Shown: piece after piece, positions 1-64,000 of the stretch | Layout of the letters: each line of letters opens with the position of its first letter | Position numbering within the stretch: position 1 is the stretch's first letter | Source: Flexivirga endophytica | Lineage (GTDB): Bacteria > Actinomycetota > Actinomycetes > Actinomycetales > Dermatophilaceae | Direction of reading: 5' to 3' | Assembly (NCBI RefSeq): GCF_014640635.1 | Contig: NZ_BMHI01000005.1 | Location: forward strand, 496,001-560,000 | Length of the DNA stretch: 64,000 bases | The notes under the pieces: model-generated | What the model was told of the DNA's origin: nothing | Seen by the model: only the letters and a program-made list of their open reading frames with translations | The model's database searches: none | Translations under genes and position numbers: made by a program

Positions 1-368
1 GTGGTTCCCGACCGGGCGAGTTCGATGAGCGAGTAGTCGACGCAGCTGCGCATGCCGGCCGTCGTGAGCCCGGCGTCCTCGGCGGGAAGGATCTCGATCA
101 GGCCGGTCAGCCAGAACTGCCGCGGCCCGTGATCCTCCTGCACCGACTTGTCGATGGGGGAGGAGTGCAGGTGGGAATGGGTGTTGATGAAGCCCGGCGT
201 GATGATCCGGTCCGGCAGGTGCCGCTGGACGTCGATCGGCCCGTCATACGTGGCGCCGACATGGACGACGCGGTCGTCCTCGACGACCAGGCAGCCGTCG
301 CGCAGCAACCGGTGACCGCCGTCCTGATACGCGACGATGTACGGCGCGGTGAACAGGGTCCGGGTCAT
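1..368 (-). CDS. Amidohydrolase family protein, N-terminal part
   Basis: The gene runs off the left edge, so only the first 122 or so residues are visible. It begins at an ATG preceded by a good GAGGAG ribosome site. The protein starts like a cytoplasmic metal-dependent amidohydrolase of the cytosine deaminase/chlorohydrolase superfamily: a short beta-rich N-terminal domain, then GFINTHSHLHSSP at about residues 65-77, where the HxH pair would bind the catalytic metal at the first strand of the barrel. Family members deaminate or dechlorinate heterocyclic compounds, but the substrate cannot be told from this part. It lies 91 bases downstream of gluD on the same strand and might be read through from the glutamate transporter operon, although that may be chance. 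Confidence 0.75.
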   Translation of the reverse strand, partial: MTRTLFTAPYIVAYQDGGHRLLRDGCLVVEDDRVVHVGATYDGPIDVQRHLPDRIITPGFINTHSHLHSSPIDKSVQEDHGPRQFWLTGLIEILPAEDAGLTTAGMRSCVDYSLIELARSGT

Positions 369-459
369 GGTTCTCCTCCTCGATGAGCGACATCACCGAG
401 GATGTCAGGTGCGAACCAGTGCCGGCGCCGGAATCACTGTGACAGCTGCGATCCCGCCG

Positions 460-1383
460 TCAGATCCCGCCGCCGGCCACGACACCCGGCGCGTTGCCGG
501 GCCCCCCAGGATCACCGGCCGCACCTGCCGGTGCGACCTTGCGTCCGCGCGCCTGCAGACGGCGTTCCACCCAGGTGGCGAGCTTGCTGATCGCATAGTT
601 GATCACGATGTAGATGACCGCGAGGACGATCAGCATCGCGAAGATGTTGCCGTTGAGCGAGGTGGCCGGCTTGCTCTTGTAGAGCAGCTCGCCATACAGG
701 ACGTTGTAGCCGAGCGCGGTGTCCTTCAGGACCACGATGACCTGGCTGATCAGCGACGGCAGCATGGCGGTGATCGCCTGCGGGAGCAGGATGATGCGCA
801 CCGTCTGTCCGGCACTGAGTCCGATCGAGCTGCCCGCTTCGCGCTGACCGCTGGGCAGTTGGTCGACACCGGACCGGATGACCTCACAGATCACCGAGGA
901 GTTGTAGAACACCAGGCCGGCGACGGTCGCGATCAGCGGTCCGCTACCGCTGCCCTGGCCGTGGGCACTGAGCCAGCCGAAGATGAAGAGCATCATCAGC
1001 AGCACGGGGAGGGCACGGGTCAACTCCACCCAGGCCGTGACGACCCAGCGGAGCGCACGAACCGCGACCGCGGCTGGGCCTTTGCGCTTCGGCACCTCGA
1101 TCAGCCGCAACATCGCCAACGCGGCGCCGAGGACCAGGCTGATCACGATGGCGAGCACAGCGGCGATCAACGTGCCGCGCAGGCCGGGGAGGATGTAGTT
1201 CTTCCAGGTGCTCCACTCGGCGAACGGTTTCCACTTGGTGCTGGCGAACTGATCCTTGTCGGCCAGCTTCCAGATCACCACGGCCATCACGGCGGCGAAG
1301 ACCAACCCGCCGACTGCACCGAGGATCGCGTAACGCCGCTTGGCCCTGGGGCCCGGCGCGTCGAAAAGGACTGATGCACTCAT
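460..1383 (-). CDS. gluD: Glutamate ABC transporter permease GluD
   Basis: This is a 307-residue polar amino acid ABC permease of the HisM/GluD type. It has a hydrophobic helix near residues 20-40 and a core of membrane segments carrying the EAGSSIGLSAGQTVRIILLP loop, the EAA motif that contacts the ATPase. It is the last gene of gluA-gluB-gluC-gluD, an order identical to the Corynebacterium glutamicum glutamate uptake system. In that system GluC and GluD form the membrane channel, fed by the GluB lipoprotein and driven by GluA. The gap to gluC is 67 bases. The C-terminal tail is Gly/Ala/Pro-rich and probably disordered. Substrate specificity is inferred from the operon; a related amino acid such as glutamine is possible. 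Confidence 0.88.
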   Translation of the reverse strand: MSASVLFDAPGPRAKRRYAILGAVGGLVFAAVMAVVIWKLADKDQFASTKWKPFAEWSTWKNYILPGLRGTLIAAVLAIVISLVLGAALAMLRLIEVPKRKGPAAVAVRALRWVVTAWVELTRALPVLLMMLFIFGWLSAHGQGSGSGPLIATVAGLVFYNSSVICEVIRSGVDQLPSGQREAGSSIGLSAGQTVRIILLPQAITAMLPSLISQVIVVLKDTALGYNVLYGELLYKSKPATSLNGNIFAMLIVLAVIYIVINYAISKLATWVERRLQARGRKVAPAGAAGDPGGPGNAPGVVAGGGI

Positions 1384-1450
1384 CGCGTTGCCCTCCTTCG
1401 TCGGGTCTCGCGATGCGTCTGCGCCCTTGGTTCCTTCGCTGCGCTCACTC

Positions 1451-2131
1451 TCATCGTTTCACCGCCACACGCTTGCCGAGCCAGCCGAGTCCGACGCCCA
1501 TCGGCAACGTCAGGAGGATGAAGAACGCACCCACCACCATGAACGCCAGGTTGAGCAGTCCGGGATCACGCTCGGTGACCGTCTTGAGGACTCCGGACAA
1601 CTCGTAGACGCTGATGGTCACCGCGACCGTGGTGTTCTTGGTCAGTGCGATGAGGGTGTTGCCCAGCGGCACGACCGCGCCGCGGAACGCCTGCGGCAGG
1701 ATGATCTCGCGCATGGTCTGGCTGAACGTCAGGCCGATCGATCTGGCTGCTTCCGCCTGGCCGATCGGGATGGTGTTGAAGCCCGACCGCAGCGCCTCAC
1801 ACACGTAGGTCGCGTGGTAGACCGTCATACCGACCGCAGCAAGCCGAAAACCGTTGACGTCGGCGAACTTCGGGTCCGCCGAGTCGGCCAGCGAGATCCC
1901 GAGCTGGATGTAGAGCACGAAGCTGCACGACAGGATGATCAGGGTCAGCGGGGTGTTGCGGAAGATGTTGACGTATGACGTGCCGACGAAGCGCAGCACG
2001 CCGACCGGCGACAACCGCAACGTCGCAACGATCGTGCCGACGATCAGACTGCCGACCGCACTGATGAGCGTGAGTTTCACGGTCGCCCAGAGCGCGGTCC
2101 AGATCTGATAGTCGGAGAAGAGCGATGACAC
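1451..2131 (-). CDS. gluC: Glutamate ABC transporter permease GluC
   Basis: This 226-residue integral membrane protein belongs to the His/Glu/Gln permease family. It has an N-terminal helix over about residues 12-40 and an EAA-type cytoplasmic loop (EAARSIGLTFSQTMREIILP) near residues 125-145, which docks on the ATPase. Paired with GluD it would form a heterodimeric channel in the cytoplasmic membrane. It sits between gluB (107 bases upstream) and gluD and is read in the same direction. The length is normal for GluC. The N-terminus MSSLFSDYQIWTALWATVKLT fits a periplasm-proximal start followed directly by the first helix, which supports the ATG chosen. Confidence 0.88.
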   Translation of the reverse strand: MSSLFSDYQIWTALWATVKLTLISAVGSLIVGTIVATLRLSPVGVLRFVGTSYVNIFRNTPLTLIILSCSFVLYIQLGISLADSADPKFADVNGFRLAAVGMTVYHATYVCEALRSGFNTIPIGQAEAARSIGLTFSQTMREIILPQAFRGAVVPLGNTLIALTKNTTVAVTISVYELSGVLKTVTERDPGLLNLAFMVVGAFFILLTLPMGVGLGWLGKRVAVKR

Positions 2132-2237
2132 GCGGTGCCCTTCCTATCTCAATCGGATGATGGGTGCCGGACCGGTGGTGGCCACGTGACGGATGGTCAC
2201 CACCGGCCGGCCGAACTTCGTTGTCAGGCCGAAGGAC

Positions 2238-3083: not shown

Positions 3084-3174
3084 GAGATTTCTCCTCCGGT
3101 TTGTATGACGAATCGCAAGGGTTGTCGACGCGATCGGGGTGACGGCGGGCGTCTCGGCGTCAGGTCATGGGTTC

Positions 3175-3957
3175 TCAGTGGGTGAGGATCTTGGACAGGA
3201 AGTCCTTGGCGCGGTCGGATCGTGGGTTGGCGAAGAACTCCTCGGGTGCCTGCTGCTCGAGGATCTGGCCGTCGGCCATGAAGACCACCCGGTCGGCGGC
3301 CCGACGGGCGAAGCCCATCTCGTGGGTGACCACGATCATCGTCATACCGTCCTTGGCCAGGCCGGCCATGACGTCGAGAACCTCGTTGATCATCTCGGGG
3401 TCGAGGGCGGAGGTCGGCTCGTCGAAGAGCATGACCTTGGGCCGCATCGCCAGTGAGCGTGCGATGGCGACGCGCTGCTGCTGGCCGCCGGACAACTGGG
3501 CGGGGTACTTCTCCGCCTGCTCCTGCACGCCGACCCGCTTGAGAAGGTCCATCGCCCGTTGCTCGGCCTCGGCCTTGCCGATCTTGCGTGCCTTGATCGG
3601 TCCGAGCGTGACGTTCTGCAGGATCGTCTTGTGCGCGAAGAGGTTGAAGGACTGGAAGACCATGCCGACGTCGGCGCGCAGCTTGGCCAGCTCAGCGCCC
3701 TCCTCGGGCAGCGGCTGACCGTCGATCGTGATGGTGCCGCTCTCGTAGGTCTCGAGCCGATTGATCGTGCGGCAGAGCGTCGACTTGCCCGACCCGGACG
3801 GGCCGAGCACGACGACGACCTCGCCCTTGGCGACCTCGAGGTCGATGTCGCGCAACACGTGGAGATCACCGAAATGCTTGTTGACCCCCGCCATACGTAC
3901 GAGCGCCTCGCCCGACGCGACGTTGGTCTCACCCGCCGGGGGCGCCTGGTCCGTCAT
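3175..3957 (-). CDS. gluA: Glutamate ABC transporter ATPase GluA
   Basis: This is a 260-residue ABC ATPase. It has Walker A GPSGSGKS at residues 52-59, a Q-loop near VFQSFNLF, the signature LSGGQQQR, Walker [14 protein letters not shown] and the switch histidine in VTHEM. These match the polar amino acid ATPase subfamily (GlnQ/GluA), which powers uptake through GluC/GluD. It is the first gene of the operon. No ribosome site precedes the ATG. A possible -10 hexamer TAGGGT (complement of 3966-3971) ends 8 bases before the ATG, so the transcript may be leaderless, as is common in actinobacteria. This promoter reading is weak because no clear -35 is visible. Confidence 0.9.
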
Positions 3958-4108
3958 GAGTAAGAACCCTACAAGCCGCGCTCAGCGAAATTTGATCTTT
4001 TTGGGGTACGGCGCGATTTCGTTGCCAGGCTGTTGCCAATGCGTATGGCGTGAGCGGACCTCACCGCACGGCGCCGCCGATGGTGATGCCAGAATGTGCC
4101 TGCACCAC

Positions 4109-4495: not shown

Positions 4496-4963
4496 ATGCG
4501 TAAATCTGCAATCGCGGTCGCCGTCGCTGCCGTCACGTTCGCCATACCAGTGCCGGCATTCGCGAATGCCGGACAGTCGGATCGCGCACCCGGCACCAGC
4601 GACGTAACGGGAGTGGTCCTCACCGGCTGGGTCGGCTCGACGCAAGGCGGCAAGAACATGGCCACGACGCAGTACGAGGCGAACTACCGCGACCCAGTCA
4701 TGGGCCCGGTCCAGTGCACTGGCGTCCACCAGACCGGCAAGAACGCCCCGGGCCTGGGGACCGACAGTTTCACCTGCGCCAGCACTACAGGGTTCCCGCT
4801 GCGGACCTTCAGTCCCGAACAAGATCTCAGCGGCATCCAATGGAACTCCGACTACTACCCGATCCTGAACAACTCTCTGGCGGTATCGACCAGCGTGAGC
4901 GGTCAGGTCTCGGCCGACGGCATGTCCCTGACAGCTGTCGCAACGTACTTCCCCGTCGGCTGA
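4496..4963 (+). CDS. Small secreted protein of unknown function
   Basis: This 155-residue protein has a clean Sec signal peptide: MRKS, then a hydrophobic Ala/Val-rich core, ending VPAFA before NAGQSD (predicted cleavage about residue 23). I prefer this ATG over the one at 4478, because AGGAAAGG lies seven bases before it and the upstream ATG overlaps that ribosome site. The mature part has two cysteines (QCTG and FTCA, about 20 residues apart) that could form a disulfide, and it is rich in Thr, Ser and Gly. I recognise no family. It stands alone between the tRNA and a pterin dehydratase gene, so the surroundings give no hint of its role. Confidence 0.7.
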   Translation: MRKSAIAVAVAAVTFAIPVPAFANAGQSDRAPGTSDVTGVVLTGWVGSTQGGKNMATTQYEANYRDPVMGPVQCTGVHQTGKNAPGLGTDSFTCASTTGFPLRTFSPEQDLSGIQWNSDYYPILNNSLAVSTSVSGQVSADGMSLTAVATYFPVG

Positions 4964-5000: not shown

Positions 5001-5651
5001 ATGCCTGAGGAAGTCTCGTCCGAAGAATTCCACGCGGCCGACGGCGTCGGCGACTGGCGAATCACCGGGGACGGCGCTCGCGCCAGGTTCCGCACCGGGT
5101 CGTTCGCGACCGGGGTGCAGCTCGTCGCCGAGATCGGCCGGCTCGCCGACGCCGCCGATCACCATCCCGATGTCGACCTTCGCTACGGCCACGTCGGCGT
5201 CCGCACCTGGACCCACGAGTTGCCGGGCATCACCGGGCGCGATGTAGCGCTGGCGCGCGAGATCTCTGCGGCAGCAAGGGAATTGGGTGTCGAAGCAGAT
5301 CCGGGCTCGGTGAGCAGCATGCAACTCACCATCGACGCCGTCTCGCAGCCGGCGGTCAAGCGGTTCTGGCAGGTCGTCCTGGGATACGACGAGTTCGGGG
5401 ACGAGGACCTCATCGACCCGTTCGGCAACGGCCCGTGGGTCCACTTCCAACAGATGGATGAGCCTCGGTCACAACGCAATCGCGTTCACGTCGACCTCTT
5501 TCTGCCCGAGGACGAGGCCGCGGCACGGGTGGCCGCAGCCGTCGAGGCAGGCGGCCGGATCGTGTATGACGCGAAGGCGCCGCTCTTCTGGACGCTTGCC
5601 GACCCGGAGGGCAACGAGGTCGACATCGCGCCCTGGCCCGACGCCCACTGA
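5001..5651 (+). CDS. Pterin-4a-carbinolamine dehydratase fused to a glyoxalase-like domain
   Basis: This 216-residue protein has two domains. Residues about 5-95 match 4a-hydroxytetrahydrobiopterin dehydratase, with the HHPDVDLRYGHVGVRTWTH segment carrying the paired catalytic histidines. Residues about 105-215 form a vicinal-oxygen-chelate (glyoxalase-like) domain ending FWTLADPEGNEVDIAPW. Dehydratases of this kind recycle the carbinolamine made by aromatic amino acid hydroxylases; in bacteria without biopterin the role is uncertain. Similar fusions are common in actinobacteria, but the function of the second domain is not established. An in-frame GTG at 4992 is an alternative start. No clear ribosome site precedes either one. 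Confidence 0.8.
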   Translation: MPEEVSSEEFHAADGVGDWRITGDGARARFRTGSFATGVQLVAEIGRLADAADHHPDVDLRYGHVGVRTWTHELPGITGRDVALAREISAAARELGVEADPGSVSSMQLTIDAVSQPAVKRFWQVVLGYDEFGDEDLIDPFGNGPWVHFQQMDEPRSQRNRVHVDLFLPEDEAAARVAAAVEAGGRIVYDAKAPLFWTLADPEGNEVDIAPWPDAH

Positions 5652-5683: not shown

Positions 5684-6433
5684 TCAGATCGGCGCGGTCG
5701 CCGCCGACAGGTGGCCCCACACCCACTGAGCGTCCGGCACCAGCGTGCGATAACGAAGGTGCGCAGCGGTGTGGTAGCTGTACGTGTAGGTCCCGCGCGA
5801 TCCGGTTCGTAGGTTCTTCAACGGTTTCCAGGTCACGCCGTCGGAACTGGCCAGGATGGTCCCGGTGGCGCCGGCATACACCCCGAAGGTGTTCGTCGAG
5901 GTCCACAACCGTGATGCGTGCGCCGTGATCGTGACGACGCCGCCCGACCGACTGGCCGTGGTCGAGGTGCTGGAGGCGACCCGGGCATCTATGGTCTGCG
6001 GTGCCTCGGTGATCGTGTGGTTGTCGCACTGGGAGGTGCCGTGGCCGGTGAACGTCAGTTTGCCGAGCGCCGGAGGCACCCCGAGAAAGACGAAGTTCTC
6101 GGCGAGCAGTGGGCTTCCACAGCGCTCAGTCGCGACCGACACGTTCGCCCTGGTGCCGTCCGGGCCGTCCGCCGCCCAGCTCAGTTGGTTGTAGCGATCC
6201 CACTCGGTGCATTCTGCGGAGTAGCCGACCGCCGCATTGAGATAAGCGGAGATGTCATTCCCGGCGTTTCTGACCACGAGGCGCTCCGGCAGATGGAGGC
6301 TCGCCACGCATCCGTCGTCCACGGTTGCTCCGGTGACCGCTACGGGAGGTGCGGCTGACGAAGTCGTCGCTGTCGACCACACAGCGAGGCTCAACAGTGC
6401 GGTGACGACTGTGGCAACAGCTCTGTTCCTCAT
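5684..6433 (-). CDS. Secreted protein of unknown function
   Basis: This 249-residue protein begins MRNRAVATVVTALLSLAVW with a signal peptide ending near TSSAA before PPVAV. The ATG at 6433 is preceded by GAGGAGGACAACC, a strong ribosome site, which rules out the longer frame opening at 6535. The mature part looks like two beta-rich domains of about 100 residues. The second resembles the immunoglobulin-like stretches often seen in actinobacterial secreted proteins (VTITAHASRLWTSTNTFGVYAG, then SSDGVTWKPLKNLRTGSRGTYTYSY). It has four cysteines in the first half. I recognise no enzyme motif. It ends convergently with the dehydratase fusion, 32 bases away. Confidence 0.7.
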   Translation of the reverse strand: MRNRAVATVVTALLSLAVWSTATTSSAAPPVAVTGATVDDGCVASLHLPERLVVRNAGNDISAYLNAAVGYSAECTEWDRYNQLSWAADGPDGTRANVSVATERCGSPLLAENFVFLGVPPALGKLTFTGHGTSQCDNHTITEAPQTIDARVASSTSTTASRSGGVVTITAHASRLWTSTNTFGVYAGATGTILASSDGVTWKPLKNLRTGSRGTYTYSYHTAAHLRYRTLVPDAQWVWGHLSAATAPI

Positions 6434-7410: not shown

Positions 7411-8400
7411 TCAGCGCAGGGCGTTGAGCAGCTCGGCACCCGTCCACCGCGGATGTATGGCGCGCTCCGCGTCGTGCACCAGCGCAACCAGGCGGGCATT
7501 CACCGGCGCTTCCAGGTCCACTTCACCGGCGAGGTCGACCACGGCGCCGTTGATCCAGTCGACCTCCGTGGGACGCCCCGCGGCAAGGTCGTCCGCCATG
7601 GACGATCGTGCGGTGGGATCGATGGCCAGCACCTTGCTGCCGAGCCTCTGGAACACCCGGTCCGGCACCCGCAGCGCACGCGCCATCAGCGACGGCGACA
7701 ACGCGGTGAGCCGCGCCGGCGCCGGCCCGGAACGCGCCATCACCCGCAGCGCCTCCTGTTGCGCCAGCGACAGGCAGCGCCGGAAACTACGGTCGCTCAA
7801 CTCGGTCCGCAGCGGCAGACCGGACAGGGCGTTGATCGCGTTGTTGAGGTTGAGCAGCAACTTGGCGCGCAGCACCGCGTCCATGTCCGAGCGCTGCTCC
7901 ACCGGGACGCCGGCGGTCGCGAACGCTGCGCCATACGTCTCCCACACCGGGTCGGTGGCGGCCATGATCTCGCCGGCGGTGGTCTGTTGGAAGCTCGCGC
8001 CGTCGCGCACCACGTTGAAGCCGACCATGCCAGTGACCACCCGATGACCGGGCAGCCGGTCGCGCAACTCCGCGCCGCCATGGATACCGTTCTGCAGGTT
8101 GAGCACCACCGCGCCCGCGGCGAGCAGCGGCCGCAACTGATCGGCCACCTGCTTGTTCGCGCCGGACTTGACCGTCACGACCACCAGATCGGCGTCGCCG
8201 ACGACAGCCGGATCAGTGCCGAAATCCGGTGTCACCTCTAGGGATCCACCGTCTCGGCCCCGCAGGTGTATGCCGCCCGAAACCTGCTCGCGCATGGCCT
8301 CGCGACCCACGAAGGTGACCGGCGTGCCGGTCGCGGCGAGCCGGCCACCTACGTAGCACCCGATGCTGCCGGCCCCGAAGACACAGATCGTCATTGCCAC
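7411..8400 (-). CDS. panE: 2-dehydropantoate 2-reductase family protein
   Basis: This 329-residue ketopantoate reductase-like enzyme belongs to the ApbA/PanE family, which reduces 2-dehydropantoate to pantoate with NADPH in pantothenate and CoA synthesis. The N-terminus TICVFGAGSIGCYVGGRLA is the Rossmann GxGxxG motif; NLQNGIHG and the C-terminal helical domain (AKLLLNLNNAINALSGLP, with the catalytic Lys in AKLL) follow. Several actinobacterial paralogues of this family are not true PanE enzymes, so the specific reaction is less certain than the family. MTICVFG two codons downstream is an equally good start. It is convergent with the hydrolase gene and ends its own transcription unit. Confidence 0.8.
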   Translation of the reverse strand: MAMTICVFGAGSIGCYVGGRLAATGTPVTFVGREAMREQVSGGIHLRGRDGGSLEVTPDFGTDPAVVGDADLVVVTVKSGANKQVADQLRPLLAAGAVVLNLQNGIHGGAELRDRLPGHRVVTGMVGFNVVRDGASFQQTTAGEIMAATDPVWETYGAAFATAGVPVEQRSDMDAVLRAKLLLNLNNAINALSGLPLRTELSDRSFRRCLSLAQQEALRVMARSGPAPARLTALSPSLMARALRVPDRVFQRLGSKVLAIDPTARSSMADDLAAGRPTEVDWINGAVVDLAGEVDLEAPVNARLVALVHDAERAIHPRWTGAELLNALR

Positions 8401-10809: not shown

Positions 10810-10837
10810 TTGCCCTCAGCGGGTGAACCGGCATACT
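10810..10837 (+). promoter_or_regulatory. Probable leaderless promoter of the PucR-type regulator gene
   Basis: TTGCCC (10810-10815), a 16-base gap and CATACT (10832-10837) form a plausible sigma-A promoter. The -10 ends six bases before the ATG at 10844. No ribosome site precedes that ATG, which fits a leaderless transcript. The local A+T-rich patch TTAAATT supports melting here. The -10 overlaps one copy of the octamer CGNCATAC that is abundant in the window, so the similarity could partly be chance. Confidence 0.45.
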
Positions 10838-12037: not shown

Positions 12038-12720
12038 GCGATGACCGCGGCGACGATCAGCGCCTGCCCGGCCAGGTAGGTCAGCATCACCCAGAAGTCG
12101 TGGACCGGAAGCGTGACATCGGCGAACGCATGCAGTGCGATCAGGCCGTCGGAAGCCATGAAGACCGCCCCACCGACCCCGGCAGTCGTCGACACGCCCG
12201 GTGCGAGCAGCGCCATCGCGGTGAGGGCAGCGCCATACACGATCACCGGGGGAGCGAGGGCGCCCGCGCCGGGCAGGCACCAGCCGACCAGGCCGACGAA
12301 CGCCGCGAGGTAGGGCCACCGCGCCCGCCACCGCGTCCACGGTGCCGACTGCTCGCGATAGGGGAGGAAGCCGACGATGTAGGCGACCTGTGCGAGCAGG
12401 AAGCTGCCGACCATGGCCAGGAAGCCGGGGTCCGCGGCGAGGAAGCGTGGCACGGAGTCGCCCAGCCAGGACGCACCGAGCGCGACCAGCACCAGTCGCC
12501 TCAGCCGGGAGCGTTCGGAGTCCGCGGCGAGCAGCACGCCGGCCAGCGCCGGCATCAGCAGGATCTGGGACGCCGAGCTGACCAGCTCGTCCTCGTCGAC
12601 GAACTGCCACGCGAGGTGGACCGCTGCCACCACCCCGAATCCGGCGAGTGCGGCCCGACCCCGGGCGCTCCCGGCAACGGACCGGTATGCCGAGTGCAGT
12701 GTCCTGCGCAGCCGATTCAT
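11938..12720 (-). CDS. YhhN-family membrane protein (lysoplasmalogenase-like)
   Basis: This is a 260-residue polytopic membrane protein with about eight hydrophobic segments. The YhhN-type pattern is visible in ASQILLMPALAGVLLA, ALGASWLGDSVPRFL and MVGSFLLAQVAYIVGFLPYR. Characterised family members (TMEM86, Legionella enzymes) hydrolyse the vinyl-ether bond of lysoplasmalogens; the bacterial function is largely inferred. Its final 100 bases run through the 3' end of the PucR-type gene on the opposite strand. That piece encodes a basic tail (RRETPSPITRSRTTSGS) with no membrane character and may be a late extension after loss of an earlier stop. Confidence 0.78.
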   Translation of the reverse strand: MNRLRRTLHSAYRSVAGSARGRAALAGFGVVAAVHLAWQFVDEDELVSSASQILLMPALAGVLLAADSERSRLRRLVLVALGASWLGDSVPRFLAADPGFLAMVGSFLLAQVAYIVGFLPYREQSAPWTRWRARWPYLAAFVGLVGWCLPGAGALAPPVIVYGAALTAMALLAPGVSTTAGVGGAVFMASDGLIALHAFADVTLPVHDFWVMLTYLAGQALIVAAVIAQRRETPSPITRSRTTSGSESRSPYNSRIWPIR

Positions 12721-12800
12721 CCGGCCAACGTACTGGGTGTTCGCCTGTCCCTGGCTCGGGCGTTGAGCCGCTCTGCGCCGCGCGTCGATAGGCTGGATGT

Positions 12801-19916: not shown

Positions 19917-19936
19917 TGCGTTGGTATGTCGCTCGA

Positions 19937-55122: not shown

Positions 55123-55797
55123 ATGTCGACGACGTCATACACCTGGTGGCCCGTGCTCGGAGCACCGATGGAGGAAGGTCTCAAGCGCGTCCTGGCGCAC
55201 GACTTCCTGCGGGGCCTTTCAGCCGGCAGCTTGCGGCGGGAGGCGTTCGGCTACTTCGTCATACAGGACACGCTCTACCTGGGTGAATATGCGCGAGCGC
55301 TGGCACTGCTCGCGGCCAAGGCTCCGTCCGGTGCGGCGGGCACGCTGGCCGCGCATGCCGGATCCGCGATCGCGACCGAGCTCGGTCTGCACCCGGCCCT
55401 CCTGGAGCAGGCCGGACTCGACCCGCAGTTGCTGCACAGCACTCCGAAATCACCTGCCACCACTGCCTATACGAGCTACCTGCTGTCGGTGTGCGCCCAG
55501 CGACCGTTCCACGAGGGTCTGGCCGCGGTGCTCCCGTGTTACTGGATCTATCAGCAGGTCGGTGTCGCGCTTGCGGAGTCCGGCTCGAGCGATCCGGTCT
55601 ATGCGCGCTGGATCGAGTCGTATGCCGCTCCCGATTTCGCGCGGAGCGTCGCCGAGATGCTGCAGGTCGTCGACGAAACCGTCGGTGGACTGTCCGAGCG
55701 ACAGGTGGCGGACATGGTCGAGCACCTCGAGATCGCGACCCGTTATGAGTGGATGTTCTGGGACGCCGCGGTGCGCGGAGAGAGGTGGCCGTGGTGA
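55123..55797 (+). CDS. tenA: TenA-family thiaminase II-like protein
   Basis: This 224-residue TenA/THI-4 protein salvages thiamine breakdown products by hydrolysing aminopyrimidines (HMP release). The family sequence FGYFVIQDTLYLGEYARALALLAAK, the catalytic Cys region YLLSVCAQRPFHEGLAAVLPCYWIYQQVG and late YEWMFWDAA are clear. The ATG follows the TPP riboswitch ribosome site AGGAAGGGG at a good distance. It is the first gene of tenA-thiM-thiE-thiD, overlapping thiM by four bases. Confidence 0.92.
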   Translation: MSTTSYTWWPVLGAPMEEGLKRVLAHDFLRGLSAGSLRREAFGYFVIQDTLYLGEYARALALLAAKAPSGAAGTLAAHAGSAIATELGLHPALLEQAGLDPQLLHSTPKSPATTAYTSYLLSVCAQRPFHEGLAAVLPCYWIYQQVGVALAESGSSDPVYARWIESYAAPDFARSVAEMLQVVDETVGGLSERQVADMVEHLEIATRYEWMFWDAAVRGERWPW

Positions 55798-56600
55798 GCG
55801 ACACCGTGACGGACGTGCTGGACGGCAGCGATGTCAGCGAGCTGCTCGCGGAGCTGCGCCGGCGCGGGCCGCTGGTCCAGTGCATCACCAACTCGGTGGT
55901 GACCGGGTTCACCGCGAACGCCCTGCTTGCCCTGGGCGCGGCCCCGGCGATGGTCGACAACCTCGAGGAGGCAACGGTTTTCGCGGGCATCGCGGACGCC
56001 GTGCTCATCAACGTCGGCACCATCAACCCGGCGGTGGGGGAGACCATGGTGGCCACTGCCCAGGCGGCCGGCGCTGCCGGAACCCCGTGGGTGCTCGACC
56101 CGGTCGCGGTTGGCGGGCTGCCGCTGCGTGACCGTGTCGCCACCGAACTGGTCCCGCTGCGTCCGACCGTCATACGCGGCAATGCGTCCGAGGTGATCAG
56201 CCTGGCCGGACTCGACGGAGGCGGACGCGGCGTGGACAGCACGGCAGGTGTGGAGGCGGCCCTGGAGCCGGCGCGCTCCCTGTGCGCGCGCACCGGTGGC
56301 GCGGTCGCCGTCAGTGGACCGGTCGATCACATCATCACTGCCGACGACGTTCGCACCGTCTCCAACGGCACACCGATGATGACCAAGGTGACCGGGGTGG
56401 GTTGCGCACTGGGCGCCATCACTGCCGCGTTCACCGCCTGCGCGTCTCCCGCGGATGCCGCGTTCGCCGCTACTGCTGTGTGGACGATCGCGGCCGAGGT
56501 CGCGATCGAGCGCGCGTCCGGCCCGGGGACGTTCGCCGTCGAGATCCTGGATGCGCTCCATGCACTCGGCTCCGAGCAGTTGGCGCGGCTGACCCGATGA
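55794..56600 (+). CDS. thiM: Hydroxyethylthiazole kinase
   Basis: This 268-residue kinase phosphorylates 4-methyl-5-(2-hydroxyethyl)thiazole for thiamine salvage. Signs are VQCITNSVVTGFTANALLALGAAPAMVDNLEEA, VLDPVAVGGLPLRDRV and the catalytic TKVTGVGCALGAITAAF. The GTG at 55794 overlaps the tenA stop; a second GTG three bases earlier is equally possible. It overlaps thiE by ATGA. Control is by the upstream TPP riboswitch. Confidence 0.93.
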   Translation: MSDTVTDVLDGSDVSELLAELRRRGPLVQCITNSVVTGFTANALLALGAAPAMVDNLEEATVFAGIADAVLINVGTINPAVGETMVATAQAAGAAGTPWVLDPVAVGGLPLRDRVATELVPLRPTVIRGNASEVISLAGLDGGGRGVDSTAGVEAALEPARSLCARTGGAVAVSGPVDHIITADDVRTVSNGTPMMTKVTGVGCALGAITAAFTACASPADAAFAATAVWTIAAEVAIERASGPGTFAVEILDALHALGSEQLARLTR

Positions 56601-58109: not shown

Positions 58110-59186
58110 TCACACCTGACCGAGGACGAGGGTCGCGGCCACCACGGTCACGACCGCGACCGCGAAGCTTTCGATCGTGAAGCGCCGCAGCGGGATCCGC
58201 AGCCCTGCGCGTCGGCACCGAGCCATCCACAGCAACGTTGCGAGTGAGCCCCACACCGTGACGATCGGTCCGGCGTTGACCCCGATCAGCAACGCCATCA
58301 GCCGATGTGCGGAGCCGTCCGCGGCGGACTCGGCCGCGAGGTAGGCGGGCAGGTTGTTGATCAGGTTGCCGCCGACGCAGCCGAGTCCGGACACCCGCAG
58401 CAGGGCGAAGGTCGACTCGCCGGAACCCATCACCCGGGCGATCCACTCCTCCAGGCCGTGCGCCCGCAGGAAGCCCACGACGGCGAAGAGCGCTGCGACA
58501 CCGAGGACCATCTGCCACGGAACGGCGATCTTGCGCAGGGCGTCCCGCTCGCGAACAGCCAACGTCAGCAACAGGATGAGCGCACCACCGGCAGCAGGTA
58601 TGGCGGGAGTGACACCGGTGACGAAGAGCGGCCCGAGTAGCAGGCAGACCGCGGCTGCAACACGCAGCAGCACCCCGTCGTGCGGCCGCGGCATCGGCGG
58701 CACCCGGTAGTGCCCGCCGAGCTGGCGATGGTGCAGGACCGCGATGACGACGACGGTGGCGGCCATGGCGACGAGCGCGGGCGCCCAGGCCACTCGCAGG
58801 TATGCCGAGAGGCCGCCCCACTGCTCGAACTGGTGCAACGCCAGCAGATTGCTCAGGTTGGAGACCGGCAGCAGCAGCGACGCCGTGTTGGCCAGCCAGA
58901 CCGTGGTGAACGCGAAGGGCAGTGGTGGCAGCTGCGCCTGTCGGGCCGTCGTGATGACGACGGGCGTGAGCAGAACCGCAGTGGTGTCGAGGCTGAGGAC
59001 GGTCGTCGCGGCACATGAAAGGACCACGACGACGAGCCACAGGACGACGGTGCGGCCTCTCGCCATACGCGCGGCCCAGTGGCCGGCGACGTCGAAAACG
59101 CCTGCGTGATCTGCGATTTCGGCGACCACGGTGATGCAGACAAGGAACGCCAGGACCGGCCCGACGCGATCGACCAACTCGGTCAC
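58110..59186 (-). CDS. ArsB/SLC13-like membrane transporter
   Basis: This 358-residue transporter has about ten hydrophobic segments and belongs to the ion transporter superfamily containing ArsB. LVVVVLSCAATTVLSLDTTAVLLTPVVITT, ANTASLLLPVSNLSNLLAL and GNLINNLPAYLAAESAA are characteristic of ArsB/CitMHS-like permeases. The ion is unknown; arsenite, other anions or dicarboxylates are possible. No arsenic genes lie nearby. The GTG start overlaps the yaaA stop (GTGA), and the extended frame upstream merely shadows yaaA. Confidence 0.8.
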   Translation of the reverse strand: MTELVDRVGPVLAFLVCITVVAEIADHAGVFDVAGHWAARMARGRTVVLWLVVVVLSCAATTVLSLDTTAVLLTPVVITTARQAQLPPLPFAFTTVWLANTASLLLPVSNLSNLLALHQFEQWGGLSAYLRVAWAPALVAMAATVVVIAVLHHRQLGGHYRVPPMPRPHDGVLLRVAAAVCLLLGPLFVTGVTPAIPAAGGALILLLTLAVRERDALRKIAVPWQMVLGVAALFAVVGFLRAHGLEEWIARVMGSGESTFALLRVSGLGCVGGNLINNLPAYLAAESAADGSAHRLMALLIGVNAGPIVTVWGSLATLLWMARCRRAGLRIPLRRFTIESFAVAVVTVVAATLVLGQV

Positions 59187-59929
59187 GCGGTGCTCACGGA
59201 CAGCTCCCAGGGTGTGCCGGGCCGGCGCGGCTCGTGCAACTCGGCCGTGAACGCGCCCGCGACGACATCGCGCAGCGCGGCCGGAGTGCGGGGTGAGACA
59301 CCGGCCTCGGCCAGGTGCCGGGTCACCAGTCCGCGGGTGTGCTTGGCGTTGTGTGTGGCGCCCGGCACGTGGATGCGCACCCAGCGCTTCGCCGTCGCGC
59401 CGGTCGGAGTCCATGCCGCGGCGTAGGTGCTCGAGCGACAGTCGACCACGACACCGTTGCCCGCGAGTTCCGTCATCGGCGCGGTCAGCTCGCCCCGCCA
59501 GTAGGCCGCGAGCGGTCCGACACCGGGCAGGTTGGTGCCCATCGAAAGCCGGTATGCCGGGACCTTGTCGGCCAGCCGCAGCGCGCCGAAGAGCGCCGAC
59601 TGCACCACGATCCAGCGGCGCGCGCGACGCAGCGCGGCAGACTCCAGGCTGGGCAGGTCGAGCGCGTCATACAGGACACCGGTGTAGAGGGCGGAGACCT
59701 GCTGCGCGGGCGCGGTCCGCAGGGTCAGGTTGCGGGCCACGTCGGCGGCGAGACTCTGGCCGACGCCGAGGACGTCCAGTGCATCCGGGCGAGCGCTCAC
59801 GTCGGCGAGGACATCCAGCAACTTGTCGCGGGCAGCGGTCAGCTCGGGTAGGTCCACGCGGCTGAGATCGAGCGCCTTCCCGCGCTTTCGCGGGGTCTTG
59901 GTCTCGGACGGCGGCAGCAGGATCAGCAC
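59183..59929 (-). CDS. yaaA: YaaA-family peroxide stress protein
   Basis: This 248-residue YaaA/DUF328 protein starts MLILLPPSETKTPRKRGKALDL, then ALYTGVLYDALDLPSL, VVQSALFGALRLADKVPAYRLSMGTNLPGVGPLAAYW and a C-terminal AKHTRGLVTRHLAE. In E. coli YaaA lowers free iron during peroxide stress and binds DNA; the molecular action is not fully known. It is the first gene of a two-gene unit with the permease. Confidence 0.92.
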   Translation of the reverse strand: MLILLPPSETKTPRKRGKALDLSRVDLPELTAARDKLLDVLADVSARPDALDVLGVGQSLAADVARNLTLRTAPAQQVSALYTGVLYDALDLPSLESAALRRARRWIVVQSALFGALRLADKVPAYRLSMGTNLPGVGPLAAYWRGELTAPMTELAGNGVVVDCRSSTYAAAWTPTGATAKRWVRIHVPGATHNAKHTRGLVTRHLAEAGVSPRTPAALRDVVAGAFTAELHEPRRPGTPWELSVSTA

Positions 59930-60007: not shown

Positions 60008-61447
60008 ATGAACCTACCGCACCTGATCGCCCCGAAGGCCGACCCGAAGGCAGGAGCAGACGCCGGTCCGCTGGAGCGGGCGTTCGCCGCCCTGCGCGAA
60101 CAACTGGACCTGACGCTGGACTATCCGCAGGAGGCGAAGGCCGAAGCGGAGCAGGCGGCCACATCGGTGGCGTTGCCCGATCGGGACGAGACCGCGGTGC
60201 CGTACTTCACCATCGACCCGCCCGGCTCGATGGACCTGGACCAGGCGATGTGCCTGGAGCGGGACGGCGACGGTTACCGCGTGCGCTACGCCATCGCGGA
60301 CGTTCCGGCATACGTGCGGCCCGGCGGCGCACTCGACGACGAGACACGGCAACGCGGGCAGACGATCTACCTGCCCGACGCGCGCGTGCCGCTGCACCCG
60401 AAGGTGCTCAGCGAGGACGCGGTCAGCCTGCTCGCGGACGAGGTGCGCTCGGCGTTCGTCTGGGACATCAAGCTCTCGTCGCTGGCGGAGGCGACGTCGA
60501 GTGAGGTCTACCGGGCGAAGGTCAGGAGCACGGCCCGGCTGGACTACGAGCACGTGCAACAGCAGATCGACGGCGGCTCCGCGCCCGAGGGGCTTGCGCT
60601 GCTCAAGGAGATCGGCGAGCTGCGGATCGCGTTGGAGGCCAAGCGCGGTGGGGCCAACCTGCCGATGCCCGAGCAGGAGGTCAGCAAGGGCGACGACGGC
60701 ACCTACCAGCTCACGTTCCGGCCGCAGCTGCCGTCGGAGGAGTGGAACGCGCAGATCTCCCTGCTCACCGGTATGGCTGCCGCCGACCTGATGCTGCAGG
60801 CGAAGGTCGGGATCCTGCGCACCATGCCGGCGCCCGAGCAGAAGGCGATCGACCGGTTCCGGCGGCAGGCCACCGCGCTGGGTGTGGAGTGGCCGGCCGA
60901 CCAGCAGTACGGCGACTTCATCCGCGGGCTCGACCGGTCGAACCCCAAACACCTCGCGCTGATCCACGACGCCACCAGCCTCTTCCGCGGCGCCGGCTAC
61001 ACGCCGTTCGACGGTCAGGAGCCGGAGGACAGGATCCAGGCGGCGGTCGCGGCGCCATACGCACATGTGACGGCGCCGCTGCGACGGCTGGTCGACCGCT
61101 TCGGCCTCGTGGTCTGTGAGGCCGTCAGCCAGGGCGGGCAGGTGCCCGACTGGGTGCGCGAGGCACTGCCCACATTGCCGGACATCATGAGCCGTACCGA
61201 TCAGAAGGCCAGTCAGGCCGAGCACGGCTGCACCGACGCGGTCGAGGCGGCTGTCCTGGCGCCCCGGGTGGGCGAGACGTTCGCGGCATACGTCGTGGAC
61301 ACCGACGAGAAGGGCATCACCGTGCAGCTCGTGGACCTCGCTGTCACGGCGAAGGCCGAGGGCAGTGCGGAGCCGGGCGCCGAGGTGCGGGTCAAGCTCA
61401 GTGAGGCCAACATCGAGGAGCACCGGGTGCGGTTCGAGTTGGTTTAG
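60008..61447 (+). CDS. RNB-domain ribonuclease
   Basis: This 479-residue exoribonuclease has an RNB (RNase II/R) catalytic domain: PYFTIDPPGSMDLDQAMCLERDGDGYRVRYAIADVPAYVRPGGALDDETRQRGQTIYLPD carries the metal-binding Asp cluster. The later AAPYAHVTAPLRRLVDRFG is the conserved RNB end. It lacks the full cold-shock and S1 domains of E. coli RNase R, as is usual in this actinobacterial subgroup. ATG at 59996 (MVGGMNL) is an alternative start. Confidence 0.9.
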   Translation: MNLPHLIAPKADPKAGADAGPLERAFAALREQLDLTLDYPQEAKAEAEQAATSVALPDRDETAVPYFTIDPPGSMDLDQAMCLERDGDGYRVRYAIADVPAYVRPGGALDDETRQRGQTIYLPDARVPLHPKVLSEDAVSLLADEVRSAFVWDIKLSSLAEATSSEVYRAKVRSTARLDYEHVQQQIDGGSAPEGLALLKEIGELRIALEAKRGGANLPMPEQEVSKGDDGTYQLTFRPQLPSEEWNAQISLLTGMAAADLMLQAKVGILRTMPAPEQKAIDRFRRQATALGVEWPADQQYGDFIRGLDRSNPKHLALIHDATSLFRGAGYTPFDGQEPEDRIQAAVAAPYAHVTAPLRRLVDRFGLVVCEAVSQGGQVPDWVREALPTLPDIMSRTDQKASQAEHGCTDAVEAAVLAPRVGETFAAYVVDTDEKGITVQLVDLAVTAKAEGSAEPGAEVRVKLSEANIEEHRVRFELV

Positions 61448-61455
61448 GCACTCGT

Positions 61456-61899
61456 ATGCCGAGGAGGGTGGTCCTGGTCCGGCACGCAGCTCCGCAGGTG
61501 GATCCGACTCGTGCGCCTGCAGATTGGGGTTTGACCAACGACGGTGTCGTGGCTGCGGCGCAGTTGCGAAAGCAGTTGCCCCGCCAGGCGACGTTCGCTG
61601 CGAGCGACGAACGCAAGGCGATCTCGACGTTGCGCGCGGCGACCGACGTGGAGTTCATCGTGGATGCGCGGTTCGGAGAAGTTCGTCGATCCGTCGAACC
61701 GATCTCGGATGACTTTCGGGTGGTGCGACGGGCGTGGGTCAGGGGTGCACTCGACGCTAGTCACAAAGATTGGGAGACTCCGCCGGAAGCGGCTGCCCGC
61801 TTCGCCGCCGGCCTCGATTCGCTGGCCGGCGACGTCCTGGTGGTGGCGACGCACGGCATGGTGCTGACGGCGTGGCTGGTGCAGGTCGACCTGCGGTGA
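61456..61899 (+). CDS. SixA-like histidine phosphatase
   Basis: This 147-residue protein has the histidine phosphatase motif VVLVRHAAPQVD at the start and the second catalytic His in VATHGMVLTAW near the end. The small size matches SixA-type phosphohistidine phosphatases, which may act on phosphoproteins or small phosphates. It follows the RNB gene by eight bases. It ends just before the first palindromic element. Confidence 0.83.
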   Translation: MPRRVVLVRHAAPQVDPTRAPADWGLTNDGVVAAAQLRKQLPRQATFAASDERKAISTLRAATDVEFIVDARFGEVRRSVEPISDDFRVVRRAWVRGALDASHKDWETPPEAAARFAAGLDSLAGDVLVVATHGMVLTAWLVQVDLR

Positions 61900-62028: not shown

Positions 62029-62976
62029 ATGGCAGGCAAGGACGCAGCACGCGCGGTCACCCCGTCGTGCCCGGTCGGTGCCGGCCGGCGGGCACTCGCG
62101 ACACGATTGGCTGCTGACCACGGTGGGGTCGTGCACCGTCGGGAGCTGGCTCGGTATGGCGTCGGGCGGAACGCCATACGAGACGAGATCGCCGCCGGCA
62201 GGTGGATTCGGGCCGGGCGACATACCGTCGCGATCGACGCAGTCCTGAGCCGGGAGGCGTGGCACTGGTGGGCCGTCTGGGAGAGTGGCGCCGGTGCCCG
62301 CCTCGACGGTGCGAGTGCGCTGGAGTCGGCCGGCATGACCGGGTTCACTGCTCGGACGATCGAGGTCACGTTGCCGGCACGCAACAGGCATCATCCGCTT
62401 GAAGGAGTGCGTCAGCATCGGGTGGACGAGCCGCCACCGATATGGGGTGCCGGCATTCCACGGATCGCCCTGGAACCAGCGACGATTCGCGCCGCACAGT
62501 GGGCAGTGAGCGACCGCCAGGCGGCTCTGCTCGTCTGCTTGCCGGTCCAGCAACGGCTGATCCTTCCGGCGCGGTTGCAGCTCACCTGGCGCGGCATACG
62601 ACGCTCACCACGGAGACGGTTCCTGAACGATGTGATCGCCGATGTCACCGATGGAGCGCACTCACTCGGAGAGTTGGACTTCACACGGGGAACACGGCGT
62701 TACGGGCTTCCGAGGCCGACCCACCAGGCGGTGCGATCGGGGCCTGGTGGGCGCGTCTACCTCGACATTTCGTGGGATGAGGTCGGCCTCGTGGTCGAGA
62801 TCGACGGCGGGCAGCACGCGCTGGCACTCAACCCGGTCGAGGACGCGCTACGTCAGAACGAGCGAGTAGCGGAGGGGGAGCGAGTGCTGCGGATACCCGT
62901 CATCGGCTTTCGCATCGCGCAGGAGCGATTCATGCAGCAGGTTCGCCGGACGTATGACGCCGTGGCCCGGCCGTGA
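62029..62976 (+). CDS. AbiEi-like/DUF559 endonuclease-fold protein
   Basis: This 315-residue protein has an N-terminal winged-helix of the AbiEi antitoxin type (GGVVHRRELARYGVGRNAIRDEIAAGRWIRAGRHTVAI). A C-terminal DUF559/Vsr-like nuclease fold follows (VYLDISWDEVGLVVEIDGGQHAL, then QNERVAEGERVLRIPVIGF), with the D...E-DG-QH active-site pattern. Proteins of this kind are common in Micrococcales and their function is unknown. No AbiEii-type toxin gene accompanies it. The gene is bracketed by two copies of a palindromic element. The ATG at 62029 is preferred; a TTG at 61978 is also open. Confidence 0.75.
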   Translation: MAGKDAARAVTPSCPVGAGRRALATRLAADHGGVVHRRELARYGVGRNAIRDEIAAGRWIRAGRHTVAIDAVLSREAWHWWAVWESGAGARLDGASALESAGMTGFTARTIEVTLPARNRHHPLEGVRQHRVDEPPPIWGAGIPRIALEPATIRAAQWAVSDRQAALLVCLPVQQRLILPARLQLTWRGIRRSPRRRFLNDVIADVTDGAHSLGELDFTRGTRRYGLPRPTHQAVRSGPGGRVYLDISWDEVGLVVEIDGGQHALALNPVEDALRQNERVAEGERVLRIPVIGFRIAQERFMQQVRRTYDAVARP

Positions 62977-63001
62977 TCCATTTCGGCCCTGATCTATTTC
63001 G

Positions 63002-63043
63002 GCCGATGCCGAACGGGAGCTATAGCTCCCACCTGGCATCGGC
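63002..63043. repeat. Nested palindromic element, copy 2
   Basis: The core GGGAGCTATAGCTCCC (63015-63030) is identical to copy 1, with outer arms GCCGATGCC (63002-63010) and GGCATCGGC (63035-63043). It lies between the DUF559 gene and rnpB. The outer arms differ from copy 1 mainly by compensating changes that keep the pairing. Confidence 0.88.
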
Positions 63044-63070
63044 GGCAGCGTGGCACGGATAGGATGTGCG

Positions 63071-63450
63071 GCGGATGAGTCGGCCGGGCGGTCGCGGCCC
63101 GAGCGATCGGGGCGAGGAAAGTCCGGACTCCGAAGGGCAAGGTGGTGGCCAACAGCCACCCGGGGTGACCCGCGGGACAGTGCCACAGAAAGCAGACCGC
63201 CGCCGGTTCGCCGGCGGTAAGGGTGAAACGGTGGTGTAAGAGACCACCAGCACGCCAGGTGACTGGCGTGGCTCGGTAAACCCCACCTGGAGCAAGATCA
63301 GACAGCGTGTGTCCGAGGGCGGCCCGCCCGAGCACGCGGGTAGATCGCTGGAGGCCACCGGCAACGGTGGTCCTAGATGGATGATCGCCACGTGTCCGCC
63401 GCTTGCGGCGGGCGCCATACAAAATCCGGCTTACAGGCCGGCTCATCCGC
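63071..63450 (+). ncRNA. rnpB: RNase P RNA (class A)
   Basis: The conserved parts appear in order: GCGGATGAGTCGGC at the 5' end, GAGGAAAGTCCGGACTCC, GGGACAGTGCCACAGAAA, GGTAAGGGTGAAACGGTGG, GTAAGAGACCACCAGC, GGTAAACCCCACC, and TAGATGGATGATCGCC, with the 3' end GCCGGCTCATCCGC pairing back to the 5' end. It is the catalytic RNA that matures tRNA 5' ends. The ends are set by the terminal helix and may be off by a few bases. Confidence 0.95.
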
Positions 63451-63484
63451 TGCACACTTCGTGCGACCGTGCGAAAGGATCCGC

Positions 63485-64000
63485 ATGTCCTCCCAAGGTC
63501 TTCCCGCAGCGCCCGCTGATCCCGTCGTGCTCGACGGTGGCCTGTCGACCGCGCTGGAGTTGCGCGGCGCCGACCTGACCGGCGGGCTGTGGACGGCGCG
63601 ACTGCTCGCCGAGCAGCCGGAGCTCATCCGGCAGGCGCACCGCGACTACTTCCGGGCCGGAGCCCAGGTGGCGACCGCCGCGACCTACCAGGCGAGCGTC
63701 GCCGGGTTCGTCGCGGCAGGCATCGAACGCGAGCGGGCGGAGCGGCTGATCGCGCAAGGCGTCCGGCTGGCCGCCGAAGTGCGCGACGAATTCGCCGACA
63801 GCCGGCCCGGATTGCTGGTGGCCGCGTCCATCGGGCCGTATGGCGCGGTGCTGGCGGACGGTTCGGAGTACCGCGGCCGCTACGGCGTGTCGGCCGCCGA
63901 GCTGCGCGACTTCCACGGTCCACGACTGGAGCTGCTGGCCGCGGCGGGACCCGATCTGTTCGCGGTCGAGACCATCCCGGACGTGGACGAGGCTGTCGTG
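63485..64000 (+). CDS. mmuM: Homocysteine S-methyltransferase, N-terminal part
   Basis: The gene runs off the right edge; 172 residues are visible. PVVLDGGLSTALELRGADLTGGLWTARLLAEQPELIRQAHRDYFRAGAQVATAATYQASVAGF is typical of MmuM-type homocysteine methyltransferases, which transfer a methyl group from S-methylmethionine. VAASIGPYGAVLADGSEYRG and DLFAVETIPDVDEA follow. The zinc-binding cysteines lie beyond the window. AAAGGA precedes the ATG. Confidence 0.88.
   Translation, partial: MSSQGLPAAPADPVVLDGGLSTALELRGADLTGGLWTARLLAEQPELIRQAHRDYFRAGAQVATAATYQASVAGFVAAGIERERAERLIAQGVRLAAEVRDEFADSRPGLLVAASIGPYGAVLADGSEYRGRYGVSAAELRDFHGPRLELLAAAGPDLFAVETIPDVDEAVV

Follow-up and report, generated by a model that had tools for sequence, protein, structure and literature searches.

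The asymmetric, non-palindromic octamer GTATGNCG is genuinely over-represented in a 64,000-nucleotide stretch of Flexivirga endophytica DNA (contig NZ_BMHI01000005.1, positions 496,001 to 560,000, hereafter the window) and in the whole genome, in the congeners and in other genera of the same family, where one-base relatives of it, GTACGNCG and GGATGCCG, take its place in some genomes. GTATGNCG is probably a self-recognition word of natural transformation, comparable to the DNA uptake sequences (DUS) and, like them, divided into dialects. Genomes, sequence stretches and genera are denoted by G-, L- and g-numbers, respectively.

A scan of both strands of the window matched GTATGNCG exactly at 98 sites, 46 of them in forward and 52 in reverse orientation, in comparison with a mean of 5.0 and a maximum of 9 in 100 dinucleotide-shuffled versions of the window. 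The strong excess in both orientations that had been claimed in a first-pass annotation was thus confirmed, as were its reverse count of 52 and all five of the sites that it had named as examples; its forward count of about 49 was corrected to 46. Markov expectations of orders 1 to 4 were 5.0, 6.0, 13.6 and 22.1, respectively, with models trained on the window, which itself includes GTATGNCG, and the order-3 expectation was 4.9 with training on stretches of the word-poor relatives G183 and G023. GTATG (n=109 on both strands) was followed by NCG in 98 cases, in agreement with the first-pass statement that it nearly always is. The signal in the window is limited to the eight bases of GTATGNCG, the flanks of the sites carrying at most 0.12 bit at any single position; because the flanks are almost without information, the idea that the sites are embedded in an insertion sequence or some longer conserved element was rejected. 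No clustering of the sites was apparent: the distance from one to the next averaged 656 bases, with a coefficient of variation of 0.93. In the own genome (4.72 Mb, 13 contigs), 8,019 copies of GTATGNCG were counted (4,048 and 3,971 by strand), or one per 589 bases, versus 1,249 copies of the reversed-word control, which is itself inflated because GTATG is common to the control and GTATGNCG. A genome-wide count near expectation or an excess peculiar to the window, the two outcomes that had been named as speaking against the claim, was therefore not what was found.

The exact GTATGNCG matches in the window are given below by coordinates and strand, with GTATGACG, GTATGGCG, GTATGCCG or GTATGTCG as the form found, together with a gene whose product we take to be AceE-like, which lies outside the signal and was used as the yardstick for family placement and homologous regions.

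242..249, minus, GTATGACG site
690..697, minus, GTATGGCG site
1823..1830, minus, GTATGACG site
1973..1980, plus, GTATGACG site
3103..3110, plus, GTATGACG site
3340..3347, minus, GTATGACG site
3889..3896, minus, GTATGGCG site
4043..4050, plus, GTATGGCG site
4540..4547, minus, GTATGGCG site
5564..5571, plus, GTATGACG site
5872..5879, minus, GTATGCCG site
7455..7462, plus, GTATGGCG site
7929..7936, minus, GTATGGCG site
8268..8275, plus, GTATGCCG site
9051..9058, plus, GTATGCCG site
9465..9472, plus, GTATGCCG site
10227..10234, plus, GTATGGCG site
10829..10836, minus, GTATGCCG site
11172..11179, minus, GTATGCCG site
11635..11642, plus, GTATGTCG site
11673..11680, minus, GTATGACG site
11965..11972, plus, GTATGGCG site
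12231..12238, minus, GTATGGCG site
12685..12692, plus, GTATGCCG site
12799..12806, plus, GTATGTCG site
12899..12906, plus, GTATGCCG site
14646..14653, minus, GTATGTCG site
15220..15227, plus, GTATGGCG site
15622..15629, minus, GTATGGCG site
18193..18200, minus, GTATGGCG site
18399..18406, minus, GTATGTCG site
19620..19627, minus, GTATGCCG site
19924..19931, plus, GTATGTCG site
20390..20397, minus, GTATGTCG site
21213..21220, plus, GTATGGCG site
21952..21959, minus, GTATGCCG site
22226..22233, minus, GTATGGCG site
23434..23441, plus, GTATGACG site
23627..23634, minus, GTATGGCG site
24464..24471, minus, GTATGCCG site
25224..25231, minus, GTATGGCG site, divergent pair with 25245..25252
25245..25252, plus, GTATGACG site
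26430..26437, minus, GTATGCCG site
29266..29273, plus, GTATGGCG site
29854..29861, minus, GTATGTCG site
31827..31834, minus, GTATGGCG site
31948..31955, plus, GTATGCCG site
32662..32669, minus, GTATGCCG site
32896..32903, plus, GTATGACG site
34388..34395, minus, GTATGACG site
34524..34531, minus, GTATGCCG site
35213..35220, plus, GTATGTCG site
35534..35541, plus, GTATGCCG site
36249..36256, plus, GTATGACG site
36382..36389, minus, GTATGGCG site
38139..38146, plus, GTATGTCG site
38589..38596, minus, GTATGACG site
38687..38694, plus, GTATGGCG site
39376..39383, plus, GTATGGCG site
41133..41140, plus, GTATGCCG site
41546..44305, minus, presumed AceE-like gene
42485..42492, plus, GTATGACG site within the AceE-like gene
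43138..43145, minus, GTATGCCG site within the AceE-like gene
43724..43731, plus, GTATGACG site within the AceE-like gene
45274..45281, minus, GTATGCCG site
45644..45651, plus, GTATGCCG site
45935..45942, plus, GTATGCCG site
46217..46224, minus, GTATGGCG site
46866..46873, minus, GTATGTCG site
47157..47164, plus, GTATGTCG site
47514..47521, minus, GTATGGCG site
47763..47770, plus, GTATGGCG site
49366..49373, minus, GTATGCCG site
50054..50061, minus, GTATGCCG site
50212..50219, minus, GTATGCCG site
50242..50249, plus, GTATGGCG site
51581..51588, minus, GTATGGCG site
51675..51682, plus, GTATGACG site
52572..52579, plus, GTATGGCG site
55133..55140, minus, GTATGACG site
55257..55264, minus, GTATGACG site
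55620..55627, plus, GTATGCCG site
56168..56175, minus, GTATGACG site
58598..58605, plus, GTATGGCG site
58800..58807, plus, GTATGCCG site
59061..59068, minus, GTATGGCG site
59552..59559, plus, GTATGCCG site
59665..59672, minus, GTATGACG site
60306..60313, minus, GTATGCCG site
61053..61060, minus, GTATGGCG site
61284..61291, minus, GTATGCCG site
61454..61461, plus, GTATGCCG site
62154..62161, plus, GTATGGCG site, convergent pair with 62172..62179
62172..62179, minus, GTATGGCG site
62218..62225, minus, GTATGTCG site
62592..62599, minus, GTATGCCG site
62952..62959, plus, GTATGACG site
63413..63420, minus, GTATGGCG site
63838..63845, plus, GTATGGCG site

The kin of the AceE-like gene place the window in Dermatophilaceae/Intrasporangiaceae, the named matches including Segeticoccus, Pedococcus, Phycicoccus, Janibacter and Ornithinimicrobium; the AceE-like positions of Segeticoccus rhizosphaerae and Phycicoccus elongatus differed by at most 3 bases from matches in the family members G168 and G164. 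All five genomes of the own genus (the own one included) held 5,019-8,019 copies of GTATGNCG each, and the counts across the family (186 genomes, 53 genera) ranged from 34 to 8,019. The order was sampled with 396 genomes, 34 in the family and 362 from 19 other families. A comparable excess was found in none of these 362 genomes, in which counts lay near the reversed control (the largest being 508, with a control of 513) and a few low-count genomes stood at two to four times control (e.g. 29 versus 8 and 68 versus 28). Among the sampled genomes, the GTATGNCG excess is confined to this one family. Class thresholds, which were set after the data had been seen and applied to three count tables read by eye, were forward counts of at least 350 and 2x control for GTATGNCG, at least 1,500 and 3x for GTACGNCG and at least 900 and 5x for GGATGCCG; they were reached by 108, 10 and 7 genomes, respectively, two of which were in both the GTATGNCG and the GGATGCCG sets, so that 123/186 family genomes and 37/53 genera carried one of the three words. 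Among the papers listed in a literature search, with preprints and most subscription papers outside it, none was seen to describe a word of this kind from actinobacteria.

Several GTATGNCG-poor genera held thousands of copies of GTACGNCG or GGATGCCG, seldom of both, with the following whole-genome counts.

G006, GTACGNCG 6,125
G007, GTACGNCG 6,705
G008, GTACGNCG 2,411 (intermediate)
G016, GTACGNCG 4,637
G017, GTACGNCG 7,097
G018, GTACGNCG 3,371
G019, GTACGNCG 6,107
G083, GTACGNCG 8,164
G087, GTACGNCG 6,062
G088, GTACGNCG 8,819
G089, GTACGNCG 8,704
G021, GGATGCCG 3,816
G022, GGATGCCG 3,838
G033, GGATGCCG 4,480
G034, GGATGCCG 3,619
G035, GGATGCCG 2,195 and GTATGNCG 1,270
G036, GGATGCCG 2,099 and GTATGNCG 1,251
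G178, GGATGCCG 3,949

Apart from G035 and G036, these genomes contained 68-556 copies of GTATGNCG each, low counts that in e.g. G006, G007, G033 and G034 still amounted to 3 to 4.5 times control. Preferences within and beside the word varied as well. The base at N in the own genus was A in 55, C in 93, G in 68 and T in 33 cases; in small samples, it was C at 12/12 sites of G079, 41/44 of G141 and 15/15 of Phycicoccus elongatus, the bases CG were preferred directly downstream in G102, and in G175 a C was present at position -1 in 8/9 sites and likewise at +2. Extended dialects were observed, among them GTATGCCGCG, GGTATGCCGNG and CGTATGCCGNC. When mapped onto the ComEC phylogeny of 47 genomes, which is a rough guide because it is built from a single gene, the five word classes (counting none and mixed as classes, where none may conceal words other than the three scored) required at least 17 changes versus a shuffled mean of 22.0, and the GTACGNCG class required 5, at least 4 of which were forced by well-supported branches.

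Retention of the sites at homologous places depends on the dialect. In four congeners, 71/123 site comparisons were kept versus 32-35% of matched 8-mers, and G093, a distant relative with the same word, kept 11/21 (control 21%). The pooled figure for seven same-word relatives was 92/190, versus 1/112 (controls 18-26%) for six GTACGNCG relatives with the weak G008 included; these comparisons are not independent, because the same window sites were compared with several genomes. T4 to C was the commonest change at homologous places and coincides with the usual conversion of TAT to TAC. The six GTACGNCG relatives read GTACGNCG at 22/112 window sites, and at 30 aligned GTACGNCG places of G006 the window read GTATGNCG at 10, GTACGNCG at 2 and other sequences at 18. 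Switching between GTATGNCG and GTACGNCG in place is suggested rather than proven by these numbers, because non-motif TATG also became TACG in 14/43 cases in the same six relatives.

Placement was examined in a pool of 633 sites from 19 sources (the window, four other own-genome stretches, congeners, G167 and G093), with genes assigned by a simple in-house caller. Called genes contained 510 sites (1.49 per kb), and 123 were outside genes or unclear (1.65 per kb). All six reading frames were occupied, and four of them, which force TAT, NCA or ATA codons, or ATG, held 484 of the 510 in-gene sites; TAT was forced by 176, NCA by 119 and ATA by 110, which bears out the earlier remark that the sites impose rare codons, ATA included. 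Sites of GTACGNCG and GGATGCCG in their own genomes were likewise distributed over several frames and also fell outside genes; one frame was preferred. Across 33 stretches from the own genus, G167, G093 and G102, the numbers of sites on the two strands were equal (518/521), as had been claimed for the window, and differences between stretches were no larger than chance (summed heterogeneity 18.9 on 33), so the polarity expected of Chi or the FtsK-orienting polar sequences (KOPS) was not observed.

The own genome encodes, according to domain matches, ComEA (SLBB and helix-hairpin-helix) and ComEC, and contains two tad clusters, one beside a gene that we take to be endonuclease III-like and one upstream of the presumed prfB. 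Both carry a T2SSE-domain ATPase of the TadA type; the T2SSF and TadE domains were checked in the congener G004. Two more T2SSE-bearing loci of the own genome (L127 and L128) contain Tad-type ATPases and pilin-like small genes. ComEC was matched in 75/76 chosen genomes, the exception (G168) being word-rich, and a prfB-linked TadA was read by eye in 168/186 family genomes. One of the three words was carried by 119/168 genomes with this TadA versus 4/18 without it (Fisher p 8e-5), in a test with classes by eye, broken tadA copies scored as present and kinship ignored. Nine of the 18 TadA-absent genomes were re-examined (G005, G026, G037, G067, G069, G094, G100, G181 and G117), together with G092 and G121; the 14 word-poor ones span 7 genera, and four of them are on the ComEC tree, at about two places. 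G094 and G067, both without prfB-linked TadA and under the thresholds for all three words, had irregular com genes: ComEC was matched in two frames in G094 (L055), whereas in G067 (L056) the ComEC match was shortened and no ComEA could be detected. A type IVa pilus as the uptake machine was rejected because PilM is rare; ComP itself was not searched for.

The columns of ComEA, Flp, TadE1, TadE2 and TadG were compared with the dialects. The best one, near the C-terminus of TadE1, held R/K/S/T/D with GTATGNCG (19 rows) and V/Q/E/C with GTACGNCG (9 rows), with R, S, T and V present in word-poor genomes too and kinship not controlled, and is regarded as a lead only. An example of the minor pilin is as follows.

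L124:14232-14648, TadE-like minor pilin of the prfB-linked cluster

The prfB-linked tadA was split in G008, G079, G099, G138 and G146, with the halves on one contig and 11 to 79 kb apart, and other genomes showed one-sided breaks or frame changes. Insertion occurred at more than one place within the gene (L276, L277, L278, L279/L280, L281/L282 and L287); the junctions of G099, G138 and G146 carried large serine recombinases, a tyrosine integrase adjoined the break in G122, and a short tadA piece was repeated in G146, as from stacked insertions. The tadA gene thus looks like an integration hotspot. The insert segments of six genomes (86.9 kb, with only one tadA side for G073 and with G138 and G146 sampled at the ends) contained 13 word sites versus 56.4 predicted from host density; two shorter one-sided segments outside this sum contained 0 versus 2.1 (G120) and 2 versus 2.2 (G122). 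A 16-kb insert divides the tadA of G008 (L278), whose GTACGNCG count is 2,411 versus 6,125 and 6,705 in its congeners G006 and G007, a difference that possibly represents decay after loss. Mobile elements disrupt other transformation genes, comK and comM among them. The comEC of Piscirickettsia salmonis is likewise broken by mobile elements (PMC12955456). By this analogy, element insertion in tadA fits a transformation role for the Tad pilus and is no proof of it.

The uptake signal sequences of Pasteurellaceae are similar in being an abundant genomic word and in that their receptor was long unknown; they differ in phylum and machinery, the word being longer with AT-rich flanks. The DUS dialects of Neisseriaceae, as described in PMC3630211, are similar in that each genome contains a short word in thousands of copies, with variants of one word in related genera and a distribution that follows lineages, whereas the hosts here are high-GC Gram-positive bacteria with Tad/Flp instead of a type IVa pilus, close inverted pairs are not enriched and the uptake preference is a presumed one. 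Micrococcus luteus also possesses ComEA, ComEC and two tad clusters, and its transformation is Flp-pilus-dependent and needs both clusters (PMC4322843); the phrase 'uptake sequence' is absent from the main text of that paper. The own clusters may correspond to tad-1 and tad-2 of M. luteus, as judged from the pilin N-termini (PMC6370729).

With DUS as the model, a surface DNA receptor, probably a Tad/Flp minor pilin or its partner, would bind word-bearing fragments preferentially, ComEA and ComEC would import the bound DNA, homologous recombination would write the fragments into the genome, and over generations this bias would accumulate the word wherever codons tolerate it; a change of receptor specificity in a lineage would then change the genome word and produce dialects. 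The likeness to DUS that was offered at first pass is the best supported of the readings, because the dialects, the strand neutrality, the dialect-tied retention and the scarcity in mobile DNA fit it. Preferential binding and uptake of word-bearing DNA would be the deciding feature of a DUS, so GTATGNCG is classed as DUS-like in behaviour, not as a proven DUS.

Several results, besides the TATG to TACG change mentioned above, weigh against this assignment. Retention in two same-word relatives did not rise clearly above control (8/28 in G167, 0.29 versus 0.26; 2/18 in G086, 0.11 versus 0.22). Close inverted pairs, which are typical of the uptake words of Neisseria and Haemophilus (common, not strictly defining), were not enriched here: against an expectation of 11.5 per class, 9 and 8 inverted and 3 and 0 direct pairs were <30 bases apart. 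Many genomes without the three words (e.g. G051, G055 and G183) also possess ComEC and the prfB-linked tad cluster; the machinery therefore does not predict which genomes carry a word, and neither component was accepted as a sufficient switch between word-rich and word-poor states. The word-rich genomes G073, G079, G099, G120, G123, G138 and G146 have a broken tadA, the word-rich G072 has just a short piece of it, and tadA was not found in the word-rich G117 (given as 100% complete) or in G100, G121 and G181 (68-75% complete), so that recent loss must be invoked. Flp, TadE and TadG were unmatched at the tad locus of G083, whose GTACGNCG count (8,164) is among the highest, PilM of type IVa pili was above cut-off in 2/76 genomes, the own one not among them, and none of the protein columns tracked the dialects cleanly.

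The main rival, which we consider unlikely, is a methylation-linked word resembling the highly iterated palindrome 1 (HIP1) of cyanobacteria, in which a solitary methyltransferase would mark the copies, mark-dependent repair or conversion would create and keep them, and variants would follow the enzyme. Such a process would account for the abundance, the occurrence on both strands and the turnover. HIP1 is likewise an abundant octamer with lineage-specific replacements that accompany methyltransferases, and is palindromic (PMC4390886), as are its alternates, but GTATGNCG is asymmetric and its variants consist of one base and graded flank preferences. The palindrome GACGCGTC was in excess in the word-poor family genome G098 (L251 and L024), a point in favour of methylation.

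A genome-wide, selection-maintained binding site of a nucleoid or chromosome-organising protein would agree with the unclustered spread at a mean of 656 bases and with congener retention above that of matched 8-mers, but is improbable: selection acting at about 8,000 sites with enough strength to impose rare codons is difficult to imagine, the word has switched several times within one family, and the strand polarity of KOPS or Chi is lacking, so a polar chromosome signal does not fit. The scarcity of sites in inserts does not decide here, because recent arrival alone could explain it. An accumulation of a functionless word through mutation or repair bias, or through codon or codon-pair usage, is very improbable, and mutation bias in its simple form fails, for although background GTACGNCG is codon-driven in dialect-free genomes (16/32 sites of G005 in the TAC-GNC frame) and dialect genomes likewise favour one frame, word-rich genomes have sites on both senses and outside genes, with all six frames occupied in the GTATGNCG pool, at homologous places all positions were affected, and by more than one kind of base change, so that no single type of change makes the word, and the window signal stops at eight bases.

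Beyond the DUS-like assignment of GTATGNCG, a wider proposal is held more tentatively, at somewhat below an even chance: the Dermatophilaceae would possess a Gram-positive uptake code, a single word that has switched several times within the family, is read by a minor pilin of the Tad/Flp instead of the type IVa kind, acts as a barrier to transformation between genera and is countered by mobile elements that integrate into tadA. Where the core word is missing, unrelated words may have taken over in some genera (of the CGAAGGGRG type in Janibacter and one other genus). In nine g26/Janibacter stretches (176 kb; L170, L171 and L232, named Janibacter; L016, L058, L134 and L163 of G055; L059 and L142 of G051), CGAAGGGGG occurred 29 times forward and 35 times reverse, whereas ten other family members, with 38-147 kb scanned per member, had 0-2 copies apiece, and CGAAGGGAG was also prominent. 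Genus g26 (G055 and G051) is probably Janibacter; its word, which G090 of a different genus, g35 (L249), shows too, may be an uptake word unrelated to GTATGNCG. Further candidates for own words were CGTAGACC in G012 (L006, L057, L133 and L144; the GTAGANC core being strand-biased, 57 to 31), GGTAGCGGC in G113 (L009, L054, L146 and L262) and GTATGCGC in G029 (L245), as well as the palindrome GACGCGTC of G098 mentioned above, and the candidate GAATGCCG stood alongside GTATGNCG in G046 (L162 and L048).

Firm knowledge of uptake words comes from two Gram-negative families, and their origin and change have therefore been argued from few cases. With many genera, several dialects, near relatives that differ and others without a detected word, the origin, switching and loss of uptake specificity would become directly testable in this family. 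If the DUS-like assignment is true, the Tad/Flp transformation pilus would gain a sequence-specific receptor to seek, and if experiments confirm it, GTATGNCG would be a DNA self-recognition code in a Gram-positive group.

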